A stretch of 29,902 nucleotides of DNA from a virus: the IMG/VR virus record IMGVR_UViG_3300021108_000008, positions 1 through 29,902 of that record; one strand, written 5' to 3'. This document shows, one piece after another, positions 14,960-29,902 of the stretch. The notes under the pieces are model-generated. The model was given only the letters and a program-made list of their open reading frames with translations. It did no database searches and was not told the origin of the DNA. Position 1 is the first letter of the stretch. Every line of letters starts with the position of its first letter. The position numbers were made by a program, and so were the translations under genes.

Positions 14960-15912
14960 TGACTAAGGAATTGTCACAAACCACTCAGAGCATCACTCCA
15001 TCAACTGGAGTGGTGCTTCTTGCATTCGGTAAGCCGCAATACTATTGGGCTGCTTATAACCTTGCTTTCAGCATCAGAAAGCACAGCCCGAATGTCAACA
15101 TAACAGTGCTGTTTGATAATCCGATTAAGGGCATATCACATTGCCAAGATTTCATGCAGTACATCAACAACATTGGCAGCATCGATGCCGATGATATCTA
15201 CACCAACAAGAAGCTTGACCCAGGCAAGGTGAAAGTAAATCTTTACAAGTACTTGCCATACGATTGCAACCTCTACCTTGATGTAGATGCGATTGCACTA
15301 AAAGACATTCAGCCGATGATTGACGAGCTTAGTCAGTCCGGCAAAAATTACATAAGCCATTGCGTTGGATATCACACCATCGACAAGGGGCGCGACTTTA
15401 AGGAGATGCAGTGGGCGTGGGCGGATAAGATGTGGGCGCACTTCAACTTGCTTGAGTCATACGTGATGCCTGCCATCAACAGCTCGATGCAGTGGATTGT
15501 AAAAGGCTCACAGGCAGAAGCAATCTATCGCACAGCAAAAGACTTGTACTTCAACAATCCCATTCCCATCAAGGAGCTTCGAATGAAGTGGGGCGGTGGG
15601 CAGCCAGATGAGCTTTACATGAATGTCGCGCTTGCGATTCACGGCATTGATCCTGCGCTAAAGACCTACTCAAGAAACGATGGCAGTGAAGGCGGCATGA
15701 TTCACTTCTCAATGCAAAGAGGGTTGAGCTTTGAAAAGATTACAGAAAACTATTACTTGCAAAGCTACTACGGCGGAGCAGGCTTCACACCAATATTCTA
15801 CATCAACTGGCTCGATAGGATGCTCAATGCGGACTTTAAGGCAATAGGCAAAAGACATATCTATTTAATTAGCAGGATTTCACAAAACAAATACGCAGAT
15901 GGAAAACGATAA
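14959..15912 (+). CDS. GT-A type glycosyltransferase (GT8-like)
   Basis: A 317-residue protein sharing one base of stop/start (TAATG) with the previous gene. It opens with a nucleotide-sugar fold (VVLLAFGKPQYYWAAYNLAF, 18-37). It carries the metal-binding DxD in NLYLDVDAIAL (D108/D110) and a later WGGGQPDELYMNVAL segment typical of small-sugar transferases. It should transfer a sugar from a nucleotide donor. Inside a virion operon the target may be a tail or capsid protein, or a host surface glycan. The specific sugar and acceptor cannot be told from sequence. Confidence 0.8.
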   Translation: MTKELSQTTQSITPSTGVVLLAFGKPQYYWAAYNLAFSIRKHSPNVNITVLFDNPIKGISHCQDFMQYINNIGSIDADDIYTNKKLDPGKVKVNLYKYLPYDCNLYLDVDAIALKDIQPMIDELSQSGKNYISHCVGYHTIDKGRDFKEMQWAWADKMWAHFNLLESYVMPAINSSMQWIVKGSQAEAIYRTAKDLYFNNPIPIKELRMKWGGGQPDELYMNVALAIHGIDPALKTYSRNDGSEGGMIHFSMQRGLSFEKITENYYLQSYYGGAGFTPIFYINWLDRMLNADFKAIGKRHIYLISRISQNKYADGKR

Positions 15913-16471
15913 GGCAAAGAGAGGCAGACCAAAGAAAGAAATAGTAACCACTGAAACATTCAATGAGGTTGCAAGACATGACTGGAACTCAGAGGATGAG
16001 TGCGGTCTATTCATGGCAAACCTTATAAAGATGGCTCAGTACAAAACAGTTCTTGAGATAGGAGTCTTTGAAGGCGAGACAGCTAAGCATCTTATACAAG
16101 CCATTCCAAAAGGAGGGCAGTATGTCGGCATCGACATCAATGATTATCGAACACCTGCAACAATGCTATATATGGCAGAGGGTGGTAAGTCAATTGACTT
16201 TGTGCTTGGCAACTCACTTGAAGAGTTAACCAAGTTACCTAAAGCCCACTTTGATCTTATCTTCATTGATGCTGACCACAGCTTCGAGCATGTACTTCAA
16301 GAATTCAAGCTTGCTGAGAATCTTGTAAGCAAAGATGGTGTGATTATTTTACATGATACTATCCATCTTGAAGGCCCTAGAATGCTTGTTGAATACGCAA
16401 CATACTATAAATATAAATCAGTCACGCTTAACACTACCGAAGGGCGAGGCATATCAATTCTAAAAAGATGA
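15899..16471 (+). CDS. Class I SAM-dependent methyltransferase (Methyltransf_24-like), copy 1
   Basis: A 190-residue methyltransferase. Motif I is VLEIGVFEGETA (51-62), the SAM ribose acid is D79 in GIDIND, and a metal/catalytic region IFIDADH (121-127) and LHDT (151-154) follow. This resembles sugar or small-molecule O-methyltransferases of the TylF/CmcI type. The first residues include KRGRPKK, an AT-hook-like basic motif absent from the second copy. It overlaps the glycosyltransferase gene by 14 bases and the paralogue by ATGA, so the three form one cassette. Confidence 0.85.
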   Translation: MENDKAKRGRPKKEIVTTETFNEVARHDWNSEDECGLFMANLIKMAQYKTVLEIGVFEGETAKHLIQAIPKGGQYVGIDINDYRTPATMLYMAEGGKSIDFVLGNSLEELTKLPKAHFDLIFIDADHSFEHVLQEFKLAENLVSKDGVIILHDTIHLEGPRMLVEYATYYKYKSVTLNTTEGRGISILKR

Positions 16472-17001
16472 ATAAAGAAATTGTAACTACTAAGACATTT
16501 AAAGAAATTCCAATGCCTTGGTGGACGAGTGAGATTGATGTTTATGATTTAATTTACACGCTAATTAAAATGACATGCGCTAAGAATGTGATGGAAATTG
16601 GTGTGTTTGAAGGTTACACATCTGTTAAGATGGTTGAAGCTTTGCCAAAAGATGGCAAGTTTACGGGCATTGATATAAACGATTATTTAAAAAACGATTT
16701 AAAATCAATAGGCCCAGAAATAGATTTTATACTTGGCGAATCTATTAAAGTGATGCAAGATATGAAACCAAAGCAATTTGATTTTATCTTTGTAGATGGA
16801 GATCATCATTGGGAATATATATTGCCTGAGTTCAAAGAGGTTGAAAAATTAATAAAGCCAGGTGGCATTATAGCCTATCATGATACAATAGGTATCCCAG
16901 ATGTTACAAGGTTAATGGATTATGTTTCTAAAAATAAATATCATGTTTTAACTTTTAAAACTTCTGATAATCGCGGACTCTCTTTAATACAAAAAAAATG
17001 A
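16468..17001 (+). CDS. Class I SAM-dependent methyltransferase, copy 2 (tandem paralogue)
   Basis: A 177-residue methyltransferase that aligns along its full length with the preceding gene (for example KEIVTTKTFKEI against KEIVTTETFNEV; EIGVFEGYT; GIDINDY; DFIFVDGDHHWEY; HDTI). By eye a little under half of positions are identical. Codon use is clearly more AT-rich (AAA, TTA, GAT) than in copy 1, so the pair arose either by old duplication or by separate acquisition. It is probably part of the same glycan-modifying pathway with a different methylation position. Confidence 0.85.
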   Translation: MNKEIVTTKTFKEIPMPWWTSEIDVYDLIYTLIKMTCAKNVMEIGVFEGYTSVKMVEALPKDGKFTGIDINDYLKNDLKSIGPEIDFILGESIKVMQDMKPKQFDFIFVDGDHHWEYILPEFKEVEKLIKPGGIIAYHDTIGIPDVTRLMDYVSKNKYHVLTFKTSDNRGLSLIQKK

Positions 17002-18963: not shown

Positions 18964-19858
18964 TGAACTCGTTAAACAGAAAATTAAACTGCTTGAGACC
19001 GTTCCCGAGGAGATTGCTACTGCGGCGGAGAGGACTCAACGCCAGGCATGGAGAAAACTTGCTCCACTGCTTTCCGAGATGGATGTTGATGCCCAAGGAA
19101 ACATCACACAGACAGAAGACAATGTTCGAAGAATTGGACTGATTACTGAGGAGCTTAACAAGGTACTGGCAGGCGGCGAATACAGAGCCGCCGTGCAGTC
19201 CTTCCTTGCTTCCATCGATGAAGGTGTGCAGCTGACTGATGACATTGCACGAAAAATAGACAGCACCTTTGAGCCCGACAATGTGCAGCGGCAACTACTC
19301 GCCATCTCCAAGCAAAATGCAATCAATGCTTTCTTTGGCTCAGGACTCCGCGAGAATGTGACTCAGCCATTTCTTGAGCAGCTTACTGCAAATGTTGCGG
19401 CCCGTGCTCCACTGCGCGAAGCAGTGAAAGCATTGCAAGGTGTAATCGAGGGAACAGATGCAAACGATGGCAGGCTGCTTGCCAATGTGCGCACCACAGC
19501 CAACACTGCTCAAGCGATTGCAGACAGAAGCTATGCAGCGGCGGTCAACGAGGAACTCGGCATTGAGTACTTCCAATATCTGGGCGGAGAGATACCGACA
19601 ACAAGGCCGTTCTGCGAACATCGCGAAGGGGCAGTCTTCCATCGCAAAGAGATTGAAGCATGGGGTAATGGAGAAAACAGCGCAGGCATCAACGACATTC
19701 GCAATGGCACATGGGCAGGGCGCATCGAGGGCACTGACTCACGCAGCATCTTCACCTTTGTTGGTGGTTGGAACTGCCGCCACTTTCTTGTGCCAGTGAT
19801 CAAGCAGAGAGTTCCTGCAAGTGTTATTGCAAGAGCGAAGGCAGAGGGTTATGCTTAG
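18950..19858 (+). CDS. Phage head morphogenesis protein (MuF/SPP1 gp7-like)
   Basis: A 302-residue minor head protein. The N-terminal two thirds are helical. The C-terminal part has the Mu F signature: RPFCEHREGAVFHRKEIEAW (C222) followed by GGWNCRHFLVPV (C276, H278). Such proteins sit with the portal and may enter the host with DNA. Its stop (TAG, 19856-19858) overlaps the stop of the convergent reverse-strand gene by 4 bases, with no terminator between them. Confidence 0.82.
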   Translation: MASFDELVKQKIKLLETVPEEIATAAERTQRQAWRKLAPLLSEMDVDAQGNITQTEDNVRRIGLITEELNKVLAGGEYRAAVQSFLASIDEGVQLTDDIARKIDSTFEPDNVQRQLLAISKQNAINAFFGSGLRENVTQPFLEQLTANVAARAPLREAVKALQGVIEGTDANDGRLLANVRTTANTAQAIADRSYAAAVNEELGIEYFQYLGGEIPTTRPFCEHREGAVFHRKEIEAWGNGENSAGINDIRNGTWAGRIEGTDSRSIFTFVGGWNCRHFLVPVIKQRVPASVIARAKAEGYA

Positions 19859-20655
19859 GTAGCTTGAGAAGAAATTCGGGCCTTAGCAGTGTATCCTGTT
19901 TTCTTAAATCCTAAAATCCATATAAGCTCCTTTGTCCATCTTCCGTTTTCCTTTTTAGGTTGAAGCCGAAAATGCCCTCTTACATTAAAGCCATCAGATT
20001 TTACCAAGTCTGTAAACCATTTGCTATCTAAATAGGTTAACTGAAATTTAGTATCGTTAACATATTTGCAATCAATGTCTTTTACTTTTGAGTTTGGCTG
20101 TAATATTTTTGTTTCGACTTGAGCATAAGTCTTAAACATTCTAAGAATAACAATATCTCTAAGCTTAGTATAAATCCAATTTTGTATTTCATCTGGATTA
20201 TTATTAATCGAAAAGCAAGAACTTATCCATCCGTTTTGAAATACTTTGTATTTAGAACTATCGTTAAACATAGCTAAAGGAATTCCAGCTTTATCAAACA
20301 TGTATAAAAAAAGTTCATTGTCTTCGCTTCCTTTTTTAACTTCATAGCTTATCATAAAAACAAAATCGCCCATAATATAGCAGCCTTTAATACTAAAATC
20401 AGCACTATCATTTAGAACAATATCAGACCATAAATCAACTAAACTTTTTTCGGCCTTAACAGTTGCTTCATAAAATGGTTCGCTTATTACATTTACTTCT
20501 TGCATAAAATCTTTGCAATAAAATTTCCAATTATTTATAAAAGCTTTACCATAAATATCAAAGAAATTTTTATCTGTATGAAAAAGAGGCATGTTGCCTA
20601 AACTTCCTTTGTGTAGCTTTTCAAGTATTGGGTAATTGCTGTAACTTATTTTCAT
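19855..20655 (-). CDS. Reverse-strand AT-rich hypothetical protein (moron), 266 aa
   Basis: The only convincing reverse-strand gene in the window, inserted between the minor head and scaffold genes. It is strongly AT-rich compared with both neighbours and has its own complete promoter, the features of a moron acquired by transfer. It begins MKISYSNYPILEKLHKG; the C-terminal part contains NVRGHFRLQP and a final W/G/Y-rich IWILGFKKTGYTAKAR, a combination I know from uncharacterised Bacteroidetes proteins. No signal peptide or clear catalytic motif is visible. Possible roles include host defence, exclusion or host fitness, none shown here. Confidence 0.75.
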   Translation of the reverse strand: MKISYSNYPILEKLHKGSLGNMPLFHTDKNFFDIYGKAFINNWKFYCKDFMQEVNVISEPFYEATVKAEKSLVDLWSDIVLNDSADFSIKGCYIMGDFVFMISYEVKKGSEDNELFLYMFDKAGIPLAMFNDSSKYKVFQNGWISSCFSINNNPDEIQNWIYTKLRDIVILRMFKTYAQVETKILQPNSKVKDIDCKYVNDTKFQLTYLDSKWFTDLVKSDGFNVRGHFRLQPKKENGRWTKELIWILGFKKTGYTAKARISSQAT

Positions 20656-24083: not shown

Positions 24084-24544
24084 TGGCTACACCAAAGGAG
24101 ATAAGTGATCGCATTAATGCTCTGTTCTCTGATTGGAATAGTGGCTTTACTCCGCTATCTTTTGCAGTACAGGATATGCGCCGCGAGATGTACATCCGAA
24201 TCTTCGGGATTGATACTGGCAGAGGAAGAAACCAAGCAGGGAACTTTCTGCCGACTAAGCCTTACACTCCGGCATACGCAAAAATCAAGGCAGCAAATGG
24301 CAAACCACCTTTGGAGCTCACAGGGTTTCTTAAGCGGTCATTTGCAACCGACCAAACAACAGTTGTGACTGAAGGATTTGATACTGCAATCTACACAGTT
24401 GCTGATGAAGCAGGCAAGGTAGAAGGATTGGAGAAACTTTACGGAACAATATTTAAACCAACAGCTGAGGAGCAATCGAGAATGTTGCAACTACATGCAG
24501 ACTTGTTGGTTGAGCAAATCGCAAATCAGATAAGCAAACCATGA
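24083..24544 (+). CDS. HK97 gp10-like neck / tail completion protein, 153 aa
   Basis: ATG 24083 overlaps the previous TAA by one base. The sequence has RREMYIRIFG, a central flexible loop, and PPLELTGFLKRSF (about 73-85), the L-x-x-T-G-x-L-x-x-S-h pattern of HK97 gp10-family proteins. These join head and tail. It is followed by a gene whose start resembles a tail terminator, consistent with a neck module. Confidence 0.65.
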   Translation: MATPKEISDRINALFSDWNSGFTPLSFAVQDMRREMYIRIFGIDTGRGRNQAGNFLPTKPYTPAYAKIKAANGKPPLELTGFLKRSFATDQTTVVTEGFDTAIYTVADEAGKVEGLEKLYGTIFKPTAEEQSRMLQLHADLLVEQIANQISKP

Positions 24545-27057
24545 ATCTACTTAAGACCATCATCGAGCGGCTCAATCAACGTGTTGAGGTAGCAAATATC
24601 TTCGACAAGCAGTTCGGACTTTGCGAGCTTAATGCAAACGGCAACGACAAAGCTTGGGTGCATTACATCGGCAATGGTCAAGCGGAGGTGGTTACCAACT
24701 TCGATGCTAAGCAAGGCACATTGTTCTGGGCTAAGCGTGGCAAGGTGACAGTTGTCAAGACTGATGCCTACAAGATGAGCGGCTGCAAGCAGTTGTACGT
24801 GACCTCTTTTCCCTTGACTGCTTATGCAGTTGTGCGCAAGAGCCATCTGCCATGCGATGGCGATGATGCTCAGGACTGGCTTGCTTCAAGAATCTACAAG
24901 CTGACGAGCGGCACTGATCCACTATTCAAGCAGAACCTTGGAGTGATTAACTACGAGGTAATTCCTAGCGGTTACATCAACGAGATTAAGACCTTAACAG
25001 CCAACTATGAATTTGCTTGTGTGACTGTCGACTTTGATGTGCAAGTTATTACTACCACTGAAGATGGATGCTATGACATCTGTGCAACGGGTGACATTCC
25101 ACTCCCGGACTTGCAGCCATGTACTCCTTGCTTGACGGAGGTTGCTGTTGATGGAGTGACAATCATCGGAAATGGAACGGCTGAGGATCCATTGATTGCA
25201 ATTGGTGGTGGCGGCGGTGGTGGTATAATGACAGCCATTGCATTTTCAACAGATCACTTAAGCGCAACTGGCAATCAGTATGTGATAGGCAATGTGGTGT
25301 GGTATCTTGGTAACATCTACCGATGCATTGCAAACAATGATTCACTGCTTCCAACCAACACTACCTATTGGACAAATCTTGGAGCAGGATTCCAAACTAT
25401 TGAAAGGCCTGCCGATTGGACATCATCAAGCGGCAACAATCAGATATTAAACAAGCCGACAATTCCAGTGCTTCCTGCAACCATTGTGGAATCAGTTGGA
25501 GGCACAGCACCAATCGCATCAAGCGGCGGAGCAAATCCAGACATCAGCATCAGCCAAGCCGATGGCAGCACTGATGGCTACTTGAGCTCAGCGGATTGGA
25601 GTACCTTCAATGGCAAGTTCGATGTTCCAACAGGAACAAACACCGACTACCTTGATGGCTTAGGAACACCGACTCCATTCCCGACTATACCAACGGGCAC
25701 TGTTACATCGGTCGACCTTACGATGCCTGTTGCATTCACTGTCACTGGCAACCCTGTGACATCGAGCGGAACATTGGCAGTTGCAGCGGCAGGGCTTGCA
25801 ACTCAGTACATCAGAGGAGATGGGCAGCTTGCAACTCTACCAAGCAATGCAAGTGGTGGCTCTGCTGTTAGCTACTACCTGAACGGGGGTACTGCTGCAT
25901 CGGTAGCCACATACTTTCAGATGAGCCAAATTGCGGTGGTAGGAATAGGAACTAACGCAGACTTCAATAAGGCAGGGAACGGGCTGATAAGCCAATGGCT
26001 TACAGATGTAGGTGACCCGAACCGATTAGAGATACCAGCAGGGAACTGGAATTTCGAGATATTCATGTCAGCTTCCTCTATTGGTGGTACACCAGCATTC
26101 TACGTTGAGTTGTTAAAATATGATGGTATAACATTCACTACAATCGCTAATAGTTCATTAGTACCTGAGGCGATAACAGGGGGCACAATCATTGACCTTT
26201 ACTTGACTTCTCTTGCCATACCACAAACAACGCTACTTGTAACGGACAGGCTTGCATTAAGAGTGTACATTGTCAACTCAGTAGGAGGCAGGACAATAAC
26301 CATGCACACGCAGGACAGCCATCTATGTCAAGTGATTACTAACTTCGCAGGAGGCATATCAGCATTGAACGGACTAACAGCCAACACGCAATACCTCGCA
26401 GTTGGAATGGGAGGCACTGACTTTGGAATATCATCGGCAACAGATACGCATACCTTTAACCTACCAACTGCATCAGCTGCAAACAGAGGTGCATTGAGTG
26501 CTGCAAATTGGTCAACATTCAACGGCAAGCAGGATGCACTGGTAAGCGGCACAAACATCAAGACTATTAACTCAACATCATTGCTTGGTAGTGGTAACAT
26601 TGTGATACCAACAATATACAAGTCAACAACTGACACTGCTACAATCACGGGCATCACAAATCAGTTAGTAGCAAGTCAATTGATTCCGGCTAATACATTT
26701 GCAGTTGGTGACATCATTAAGATATTGGGAAGGTATCGTAAGTCAACGACACTTGTGAATATGACTACACGTATCTACGTTAACTCAGCTAACAACCTTA
26801 CTGGAGCATTACTTCTTGGCACTTATAGCCTTGTTGGTTTATACTCTCAACTTGAGCGTAATCTATTTATCAAGTCTGCCACCAATACAGAGACATTTGG
26901 AAATACATCATCTTTCTATATTGATAGTGGAACTACAAATGCTGTATCAAGTACAAGTGTAGACTGGACAATTAACCAATACATTATCTTCGCAGGGCAG
27001 CAAGGTGTGGCTGGTGAAACAACATTAGTCTCTGGATTCTTAATCGAAAAACTATGA
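24541..27057 (+). CDS. Tail-terminator-like N-terminus fused to receptor-binding tail fibre, 838 aa
   Basis: Residues 1-170 (MNLLKTIIERLNQRVEVANI onwards) look like a neck or tail-terminator-type domain and follow the gp10-like gene as such a gene would. A linker with GTAEDPLIAIGGGGGGGG (about 213-229) leads to fibre modules: a carbohydrate-binding-like repeat with YRCIANNDSLLPTNTTYW (about 261-278), LSSADWSTFNGK (about 350) and LSAANWSTFNGK (about 652), GTVTSVDLTMP and YIRGDG. A module near 440-640 (NWNFEIFMSASSIGGTP and following) recurs in Bacteroidetes phage fibres. The C-terminal 150 residues are AT-richer. Its role is probably host recognition. Confidence 0.7.
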   Translation: MNLLKTIIERLNQRVEVANIFDKQFGLCELNANGNDKAWVHYIGNGQAEVVTNFDAKQGTLFWAKRGKVTVVKTDAYKMSGCKQLYVTSFPLTAYAVVRKSHLPCDGDDAQDWLASRIYKLTSGTDPLFKQNLGVINYEVIPSGYINEIKTLTANYEFACVTVDFDVQVITTTEDGCYDICATGDIPLPDLQPCTPCLTEVAVDGVTIIGNGTAEDPLIAIGGGGGGGIMTAIAFSTDHLSATGNQYVIGNVVWYLGNIYRCIANNDSLLPTNTTYWTNLGAGFQTIERPADWTSSSGNNQILNKPTIPVLPATIVESVGGTAPIASSGGANPDISISQADGSTDGYLSSADWSTFNGKFDVPTGTNTDYLDGLGTPTPFPTIPTGTVTSVDLTMPVAFTVTGNPVTSSGTLAVAAAGLATQYIRGDGQLATLPSNASGGSAVSYYLNGGTAASVATYFQMSQIAVVGIGTNADFNKAGNGLISQWLTDVGDPNRLEIPAGNWNFEIFMSASSIGGTPAFYVELLKYDGITFTTIANSSLVPEAITGGTIIDLYLTSLAIPQTTLLVTDRLALRVYIVNSVGGRTITMHTQDSHLCQVITNFAGGISALNGLTANTQYLAVGMGGTDFGISSATDTHTFNLPTASAANRGALSAANWSTFNGKQDALVSGTNIKTINSTSLLGSGNIVIPTIYKSTTDTATITGITNQLVASQLIPANTFAVGDIIKILGRYRKSTTLVNMTTRIYVNSANNLTGALLLGTYSLVGLYSQLERNLFIKSATNTETFGNTSSFYIDSGTTNAVSSTSVDWTINQYIIFAGQQGVAGETTLVSGFLIEKL

Positions 27058-28228: not shown

Positions 28229-28429
28229 ATGGCCGCAAGAAGAGTCAGTAAACCAAGGCAAGTGCTTGATATAATTGTTAAGTACTGGAGGCCAACAATT
28301 GGCTCCTTGGTGATACTCTCAAGCGTGTTTGCTCTTATCTTTAAGCAGATAGGAACAGAGACACTTGCGGCAATTGTTGCAGCTATGGTGGCGGCAGGAT
28401 ACATACCTAAAGCAAATGACAATGGATGA
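28229..28429 (+). CDS. Putative holin, 66 aa
   Basis: Small membrane protein with a basic N-terminus (MAARRVSKPRQ) and two hydrophobic segments (about 24-42 and 45-61) joined by a short polar turn. It lies 6 bases after the lysozyme gene. Size, two-TM layout and place are those of a class II-type holin that forms membrane lesions at lysis. No sequence family can be named. Confidence 0.65.
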   Translation: MAARRVSKPRQVLDIIVKYWRPTIGSLVILSSVFALIFKQIGTETLAAIVAAMVAAGYIPKANDNG

Positions 28430-28898
28430 AGGCAGAGACTCAACGTATACTACAATCGATGAAGGTTGCGTGGTGGGTATTGGCTGCAAAGTCCATACGC
28501 ATCATCACACAATTCACATCGAGCCGCAGATAGTCTACCAATCGATGGAGAAATTCACTATCTTTGGGCGCAACTATTGCACTAATCAATGGGGTCAGAC
28601 TTACGAGCTGCCTGCCGAAGAGCCAATGCTAGAGCCACAACCGATGCAACAAACCTACGCAAGCGACACCATCACACCATCGTCATCTGCATTCTTGCTT
28701 GCTCCTAAGCCGGAAGCAAAGATTATCATCAAGCCTCGGACTGAGTTCACCGAGTATAAGCCGACAATGGATGGGCCAATCATGGGCATGCTGTTGACTT
28801 TTACAATTTACCTCACAGTGCAATGGGCATGGAGCTCGATGGGCGCATGGAATAACCTTTATAGCGAACTCTCTGCATGTCTTCGCTCTTCATCCTAG
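28416..28898 (+). CDS. Hypothetical single-TM protein of the lysis cassette, 160 aa
   Basis: The start may be ATG 28416 or 28422, both inside the holin end. The N-terminal half is soluble-looking with a His-rich HTHHHTIHIEP stretch; a Pro/Glu-rich middle follows, then one hydrophobic helix near the C-terminus (GMLLTFTIYLTVQWAWSS). C-terminal anchoring after a Pro-rich stretch is a possible spanin-like layout, but the orientation is unlike classical i-spanins. It overlaps the PAS-HisKA gene by 22 bases. Confidence 0.55.
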   Translation: MTMDEGRDSTYTTIDEGCVVGIGCKVHTHHHTIHIEPQIVYQSMEKFTIFGRNYCTNQWGQTYELPAEEPMLEPQPMQQTYASDTITPSSSAFLLAPKPEAKIIIKPRTEFTEYKPTMDGPIMGMLLTFTIYLTVQWAWSSMGAWNNLYSELSACLRSSS

Positions 28899-29443
28899 AA
28901 CATTCAATCGACCTCTTCTATGTCGTAACCGATAGTGATGGGAAGATTTTCACCAACAACGAACTCTTCAAGAACTATGTAAGCCATATTAAGCCTACTA
29001 AGATTACCGACATCATAAGCATCGAAGGTGACAAGGATGATTTCATTGAAGCAATTGAAAGAGCTCGCAAGCATTCGCCTGAGCCATCAAGAGTCTATGC
29101 TCGCACACGACAGAAGAATACAAGCGACAGATATAATGTTTGGAATTGCTTTGCGATTGCTGACACTCTTCACTTTGTCGGCATCCAGATGGTGGATGTG
29201 ACAAGCATCAGCTCGCATGACTACGAACGGCAAAGAGTGCTGCTTGAGGAGTTCCGCTTTATGCTGAGCCATGAACTTCGACAGCCATTAACCAACATCT
29301 CTGGTCTTGTTCAGATGCTTATGCAGCACCAAGGTGCAAGCGATGTAGACAGGAAGGATGTGCTGAGCATGATCCACACATCGGTCAACAAGCTTGATGA
29401 TGCAATCAAGGCACTTGTTAAGAAAGCAGCTCGGGAGTTATGA
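28877..29443 (+). CDS. PAS-HisKA protein: histidine kinase fragment without ATPase domain
   Basis: A 188-residue protein. Residues 1-110 read as a PAS sensor domain (opening HSIDLFYVVTDSDGKI, closing FVGIQMVDVT). Residues about 120-185 are a histidine-kinase dimerisation/phosphoacceptor domain with an intact H-box FRFMLSHELRQPLTNI, phosphoacceptor H132. No N, G1 or G2 box of an HATPase_c domain follows; the gene ends by ATGA overlap with the next gene, so it is complete as it stands. It cannot phosphorylate itself without partner. It may pair with host kinases, receive phosphate in trans or act as a decoy. Its location inside the lysis cassette is unusual. Confidence 0.85.
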   Translation: MSSLFILEHSIDLFYVVTDSDGKIFTNNELFKNYVSHIKPTKITDIISIEGDKDDFIEAIERARKHSPEPSRVYARTRQKNTSDRYNVWNCFAIADTLHFVGIQMVDVTSISSHDYERQRVLLEEFRFMLSHELRQPLTNISGLVQMLMQHQGASDVDRKDVLSMIHTSVNKLDDAIKALVKKAAREL

Positions 29444-29622
29444 CAGATCAGCAAGCAGATGAAAGACTGGTTAAGGTTGCTGCTTGGTATGTGATGGAGC
29501 GTGGAATGCCGGTATGTGTGGCATTGCAGATACTGCAAGCAGAGCTCAAGGATAAAAGAGTATTTTGGGAAGCATCGAAGGAACTTATAAAACTCATTCA
29601 ACATGGCATCTGTACGTACTGA
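29440..29622 (+). CDS. Small hypothetical protein, 60 aa
   Basis: Overlaps the PAS-HisKA gene by ATGA and the next gene by 20 bases. A helical small protein (MTDQQADERLVKVAAWYVME) with two cysteines and no known motif. It could be a partner of the PAS-HisKA protein, judged only by coupling. Confidence 0.6.
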   Translation: MTDQQADERLVKVAAWYVMERGMPVCVALQILQAELKDKRVFWEASKELIKLIQHGICTY

Positions 29623-29902
29623 AACGATTTATTTAATTGCAATCATTGTACTTGTATTTTTGCTACTTAAATCTTGCGGAGAAAACGTGTCTAACGATTA
29701 CCGCCTTAAGCACACGATATATGAGGACAGCATACTTATAGCTTCGCAGAAGAAGATAATCGCACAGAGCTCATCGGATGCGGCAAAACAAGCGCAACAG
29801 ATTGCGGAGTTGGAAGTTAAAGTCAAGAACGCAAGCGAGGTGGTGCGCATCGAGACCAGGACAATCATAAAAACGCAGATTAAGCTAGGCGATACGGTGA
29901 TG
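29603..29902 (+). CDS. Single-TM coiled-coil membrane protein, i-spanin-like (3' partial)
   Basis: Open to the right edge (100 codons visible). The N-terminus holds one membrane helix (IYLIAIIVLVFLLLKSCG, about 9-26) followed by an extended helical, probably coiled-coil, periplasmic part (AAKQAQQIAELEVKVK), ending in a strand-like VVRIETRTIIKTQIKLGDTV. This is the layout of inner-membrane spanins and similar lysis-cassette proteins of Bacteroidetes phages. The LKSCG also resembles a lipobox, which is less likely given the long flat helix. Confidence 0.55.
   Translation, partial: MASVRTETIYLIAIIVLVFLLLKSCGENVSNDYRLKHTIYEDSILIASQKKIIAQSSSDAAKQAQQIAELEVKVKNASEVVRIETRTIIKTQIKLGDTVM

Follow-up and report, generated by a model that had tools for sequence, protein, structure and literature searches.

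Dimeric helical hairpins with a phosphoaccepting histidine are characteristic of Spo0B-type phosphotransferases, which have no PAS sensor and keep a C-terminal ATPase-like fold. HisKA proteins devoid of an ATPase domain figure in signalling censuses and are common in Bacteroidota; no functional study of this class was found in the literature searched. In archaea, proteins that join PAS or GAF sensors to a C-terminal HisKA domain and have no HATPase domain were described as "nonenzymatic HK-like proteins", and roles in phosphoacceptance, in phosphotransfer or as receiver phosphatases were suggested for them with no functional tests (PMC5847659). A sensor kinase homologue of another kind, the ATPase-dead RetS of Pseudomonas, dephosphorylates GacS and uses its kinase core to inhibit the autophosphorylation of that kinase (PMC5992135).

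The window analysed here comprises the 29,902 nucleotides of the IMG/VR virus record IMGVR_UViG_3300021108_000008 and is assigned to a phage because it contains helicase, primase, terminase, tape-measure, portal and endolysin genes. An open reading frame on its plus strand (28877..29443), running from ATG to TGA, encodes a 188-residue protein, referred to as PAS-HisKA, with an N-terminal PAS-type sensor, a C-terminal HisKA domain that includes the conserved histidine, and no ATPase domain. The phage protein belongs to the known class of HisKA proteins without HATPase, listed in P2CS as "possible incomplete histidine kinase", with which it shares the combination of a sensor and a HisKA histidine; here the class is represented in a phage lysis region. 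The nonenzymatic HK-like proteins of PMC5847659 are archaeal, whereas the phage protein is fixed beside lysis genes together with a conserved small neighbour. No report of phage ATPase-less HisKA or PAS proteins in lysis regions was found in a literature search that left many subscription journals outside its reach. Since viral fold libraries hold other phage proteins annotated as PAS or histidine kinase, a phage PAS or HisKA domain is not new in itself. The succession of a PAS domain and a DHp hairpin is shared with PAS-histidine kinases of the LOV/FixL type (4gcz, 8a7f), but these have an ATPase domain, and the phage PAS domain is without an evident LOV cysteine motif. Compared with Spo0B-type proteins, the phage protein has a PAS sensor and no C-terminal ATPase-like domain. 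With RetS it shares the retained H-box and the inability to autophosphorylate expected of such a homologue; RetS differs in being a host protein in which receiver domains and a degenerate HATPase are retained, and its action on another kinase (PMC5992135) is hypothetical for the phage protein.

The C-terminal half of PAS-HisKA was recognized directly by profile searches. The Pfam HisKA model (PF00512) matches residues 129–179 with an E-value of 1.9e-9 (37.8 bits against a cut-off of 26.9), the match placing H132 within FMLSHELRQPLTNI, and the same model matches all 38 scanned family members at E <= 0.1. Models of the two-component sensors PhoR, PnpS and AtoS span both the PAS and the HisKA regions, with alignments starting at about residue 15. 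Sequence profiles are weak for PAS, and PAS_9 matched in three of the 38 family members. An AlphaFold2 model computed from an alignment of 38 phage relatives (mean pLDDT 79.9) displays a PAS fold that leads into a long hairpin of two helices. The PAS domain, delimited by secondary structure and pLDDT at about residues 11–105 (28907..29191, plus strand), aligns to known PAS domains with a VIA-align Z score of 13.8 over 94 residues (rmsd 1.8 Å), and the top solved structures in Foldseek are LOV-histidine kinases, including 4gcz, at E about 1e-7. The HisKA/DHp hairpin occupies about residues 114–188 (29216..29440, plus strand), with helices at 114–150 and 156–187, and the protein ends at residue 188, directly after the second DHp helix, where an ATPase domain would start. 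The protein is probably cytosolic and dimeric. These results bear out a sequence-only reading of the locus, which had described a PAS-like domain followed by an H-box with H132 in a gene with complete ends; of the profile support that it called for, the HisKA part was obtained, while PAS sequence models stayed below significance on the window protein alone.

The predicted phosphoacceptor, His132 (codon 29270..29272, plus strand), and the adjacent Glu133 form a pair that is kept across relatives: the position is histidine in 109 of 109 distinct coding sequences from related phages, and the next residue is glutamate in 108 and aspartate in one. At H+4 the residue is glutamine in 105, serine in three and asparagine in one, serine and asparagine occurring in distant members; the HExxT phosphatase motif of RetS has threonine here, so phosphatase activity of the phage protein is uncertain. 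Across 89 distinct phage proteins the block LLEEFRF..SHE.RQP is near-invariant, and much of the hairpin side of the DHp domain, below the H-box, varies. The basic C-terminal tail (K183/R186) is conserved as well. All aligned sequences have R186, although relatives use six different codons for it, from which it follows that the constraint on the tail acts on the protein; for the same reason we rejected the idea that conservation of the terminal KKAAREL is a by-product of the ribosome-binding site of the downstream gene. A distant homologue, L373 (L373:3453-4004), is 37% identical overall, its PAS part staying more similar, and its H-box has decayed to NHDVINNV with loss of the PF00512 match; the histidine and its acidic neighbour are still there. 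This retention, seen in a single sequence, is suggestive, not strong. The L373 homologue offers a natural test case for the role of the histidine. In the family at large, the invariant pair of histidine and acid fits a role in phosphate handling.

The HATPase_c domain of an orthodox sensor histidine kinase is absent from the protein, from the window and from all 37 virus records searched, which comprised the window record (E up to 1) and 36 related records (E up to 10), namely 12 relatives, 21 further terminase-sampled records and three distant relatives. The records are about 13 to 40 kb in length, some of them incomplete, and the same search detected the domain in 14 of 14 control genomes. 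A nearby ATPase domain completing a normal kinase, the finding that the earlier reading had named as fatal to its proposal, was thus looked for and not encountered in these 37 records. Having no ATPase domain, PAS-HisKA should be incapable of phosphorylating itself. A response-regulator receiver domain was likewise matched in none of 13 virus records, and from the two absences together it follows that, if phosphate is involved, the partners must be host-derived.

The gene lies in a compact series of plus-strand genes. The endolysin, a phage lysozyme (27767..28222; PF00959, E 4.9e-42; phrog_7, E 5.6e-57), is certain, and is followed by a 66-residue holin-like small membrane protein (28229..28429), a 160-residue protein with one C-terminal transmembrane segment (28416..28898), PAS-HisKA, a 60-residue protein (29440..29622) and a spanin-like gene that is cut by the window end (29603..29902; 215 residues in relatives). 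The holin and spanin labels are weak, being derived from topology, position and sub-threshold matches: a clade B homologue of the former weakly matches the phrog_565 holin family (E 0.012), and the latter, which has an N-terminal membrane segment, reaches only E 0.026 with an Rz-like spanin profile, its full-length relatives giving no spanin match. PAS-HisKA overlaps the upstream membrane-protein gene by 22 nt and the 60-residue gene by 4 nt, and the 60-residue gene overlaps the next one by 20 nt. The tight overlaps noted from the sequence alone are therefore real, and the placement between a holin and a spanin-like gene stands as far as gene order and the endolysin are concerned, less so for the two weakly matched labels. 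The PHROG matches of PAS-HisKA itself are to kinase or unknown families, none annotated as lysis, although profiles may not exist for many regulators of lysis. The 60-residue protein, retained down to 24% identity, is predicted to fold into three helices (AlphaFold2, pLDDT 83.8), with no Foldseek match below E 3 and no fitting Pfam family; an Sda-like antikinase hairpin, considered as a candidate for it, finds no support in this model and these searches.

Retention of the gene was surveyed in several samples of related viruses. Viral relatives numbered 373 in a profile scan, and one scan yielded 80 viral loci at 77–100% identity. All 81 close viral loci carry PAS-HisKA, and all 81 the 160-residue membrane protein, in a common order (endolysin, holin-like, membrane protein, PAS-HisKA, 60-residue gene, spanin-like) from which genes are missing only at contig ends. 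Relatives were also sampled through the terminase, which avoids selection on the PAS-HisKA gene itself: it is present in 31 of 35 such records, down to 57% identity, and in 31 of the 31 that cover the cassette, the other four showing no absence because the endolysin is also unmatched and the region apparently uncovered. Among loci fetched via the upstream membrane-protein gene, all 50 that extend far enough to hold PAS-HisKA contain it. Values of dN/dS were 0.041–0.083 across six pairs, with dS near saturation. In a distant clade, made up of L292 (on a short contig belonging to a Bacteroidota metagenome-assembled genome), L372 and L373, the holin-like gene, the membrane protein, PAS-HisKA and a small gene with a 4-nt overlap are kept, and a membrane-anchored 153-residue gene, maybe the spanin, now sits before PAS-HisKA. 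The 60-residue gene is always downstream of PAS-HisKA, with the 4-nt overlap in nearly all cases, and as the two stay together when the spanin-like gene moves, the pair is more constant than the surrounding cassette. By these counts PAS-HisKA is a fixed neighbour of the lysis genes throughout a large group of uncultured phages, and the substitution rates point to strong selection. The survey proposed with the sequence-only reading finds the gene beside lysis genes in all relatives covering the region, and such universality makes the original observation stronger than first stated. Among cultured phages, tblastn gave no relative at E 0.01; with a clade B sequence (E up to 1) or a Bacteroidota DHp domain as the query, the matches were confined to weak ones in the HisKA region, all to records that lack annotation. 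Records G029 and G046 contain a further HisKA-like match, which apparently falls in a coiled-coil segment of a 207-residue early-region protein and was judged to be due to chance. In one record (L235/G016) the terminase is 93% identical to that of the window, and the cassette genes are 47–76% identical to those of the window's clade, a mismatch that likely arose when phage lineages exchanged their lysis regions. Distance correlations of the cassette genes inside the main clade are low, as if they were recombining.

Beyond L292, the relatives on genome contigs include ATPase-less proteins of Bacteroidota, from Filimonas, a Chitinophagaceae and a Sphingobacteriales metagenome-assembled genome, with the architectures PAS-PAS-HisKA, GAF-HisKA and GAF-HisKA-PAS. 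The proteins of Filimonas zeae (L293) and Chitinophagaceae LGM1 (L296) resemble the phage protein in having a SHExRQPLT-type DHp domain that ends soon after LDxxIxxIV with no ATPase domain, although members of the Bacteroidota class are longer and chromosomal, and often have membrane segments or multiple sensor domains. When five Bacteroidota genomes were searched with one such domain, 35 matches were obtained. The full sequence was read for 24 of them: 16 stop no more than 20 residues from the aligned DHp segment, and two more run on into a PAS domain only. The class seems large. Proteins of this kind, with PAS or GAF domains and a terminal HisKA-like hairpin but no ATPase domain, are found at L293, L294, L296, L299 and L302-L331; their typical motif is IAWIQSHxVRAPL..IMGL, with H+1 often non-acidic. 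The phage DHp sequences were scored with two HMMs, one of the ATPase-less class, made after removing members found via the phage protein, and one of orthodox kinases taken from two of these genomes. The former scored higher for 89 of 90 sequences, by 12 bits on average (56.5 against 45.2 bits for the window protein); the advantage drops to about 5 bits once helix 2 is cut back at its C-terminal end, much of the difference arising because orthodox kinases continue there into the linker to the ATPase domain. These scores point to a moderate closeness of the phage DHp domain to the Bacteroidota subclass, and they favour, but do not prove, that the phage protein descends from an ATPase-less one of Bacteroidota. 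Since ATPase-less PAS/GAF-HisKA proteins are common in Bacteroidota, the ATPase domain is more likely to have been inherited as missing than to have been lost in the phage. The host is probably a member of the Bacteroidota, as suggested by these relatives and by L292.

Of the explanations considered we favour, though at somewhat less than an even chance, one in which PAS-HisKA, acquired from the Bacteroidota-type class, acts as a DHp dimer on two-component proteins of the host, exchanging phosphate with them or removing it. An ATPase-less PAS/GAF-HisKA protein would have been acquired and then fixed beside the phage lysis genes. As gene order and overlaps suggest, it would be made late, together with the lysis proteins; the DHp dimer would accept the phosphate of a receiver domain or hybrid kinase of the host, or strip it off, under the control of a signal sensed by the PAS domain, and the host envelope or stress response may be adjusted around lysis as an outcome. 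The 60-residue protein, as the most constant neighbour, may be a partner or an inhibitor of PAS-HisKA. That partnership rests on adjacency, because the correlation of pairwise distances between the two proteins is no higher than for other cassette genes. A narrower version, in which PAS-HisKA with its 60-residue partner forms a PAS-gated phosphoacceptor that reads or drains host phosphorelays like a tap to set or prepare lysis, is tentative and rather unlikely. The suggestions of the sequence-only reading, that the protein forms heterodimers with a host kinase, diverts phosphate or passes a PAS-sensed signal into lysis timing, are hypothetical and plausible.

Other explanations do without phosphate transfer. 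The protein could regulate lysis timing by contact: late in infection its PAS domain would respond to the redox state or to a small molecule, and its DHp dimer would switch the holin, the 60-residue protein or the neighbouring membrane protein, in this way delaying or triggering lysis. The fixed place among overlapping reading frames of the lysis region, the constancy with which the 60-residue gene follows even where the spanin-like gene has moved, and the tail conserved at the amino-acid level are all in agreement with such a regulator; gene order, however, speaks of co-expression and not of function, and the survival of His132 and its acidic neighbour in the otherwise decayed H-box of L373 is left unexplained. 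We hold regulation by contact to be unlikely. The DHp hairpin is the dimer interface of HisKA kinases. A phage hairpin might therefore enter mixed dimers with host kinases as a dominant-negative decoy that blocks trans-autophosphorylation with its own histidine unused, for which the inhibition of GacS autophosphorylation through the kinase core of RetS provides a precedent (PMC5992135). A pure decoy would have no need of an invariant histidine and acid, and the phage DHp domains are nearer to the ATPase-less Bacteroidota proteins than to orthodox host kinases, so that we regard this explanation as improbable.

Two further explanations are scarcely credible. HisKA domains are widespread in bacteria and the H-box of L373 has decayed, as would be the case for a host-derived accessory gene or a degenerate kinase remnant of no fixed role, but universal retention, dN/dS below 0.1 and the invariant histidine largely refute such a remnant. 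Split kinases do occur in bacteria, and an ATPase fold beyond recognition could be encoded by another phage gene of the same genome; the HATPase_c searches of the window record and its 36 relatives, set against their success in the control genomes, make this very improbable. Were the preferred phosphate-handling model true, action on host phosphorelays around lysis would give the lytic programme a direct route to read or override host signalling. The phage version, compact and under strong selection, consists of a single sensor domain and a single hairpin beside one constant neighbour gene, and so offers a minimal system in which to learn the function of the class.

Elsewhere in the window, a tandem pair of adjacent, overlapping genes (15899-16471 and 16468-17001) in the structural gene region is O-methyltransferase-like, both members matching the same families (Methyltransf_3/24). 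A minus-strand open reading frame of 266 residues (19855-20655), with no Pfam or PHROG match, is located between plus-strand structural genes. Upstream of the endolysin, a tail-fibre-like gene of 838 residues (24541-27057) is highly variable among relatives, with about 40–100% identity in aligned parts and shifting offsets, and the lysis region is conserved by contrast.
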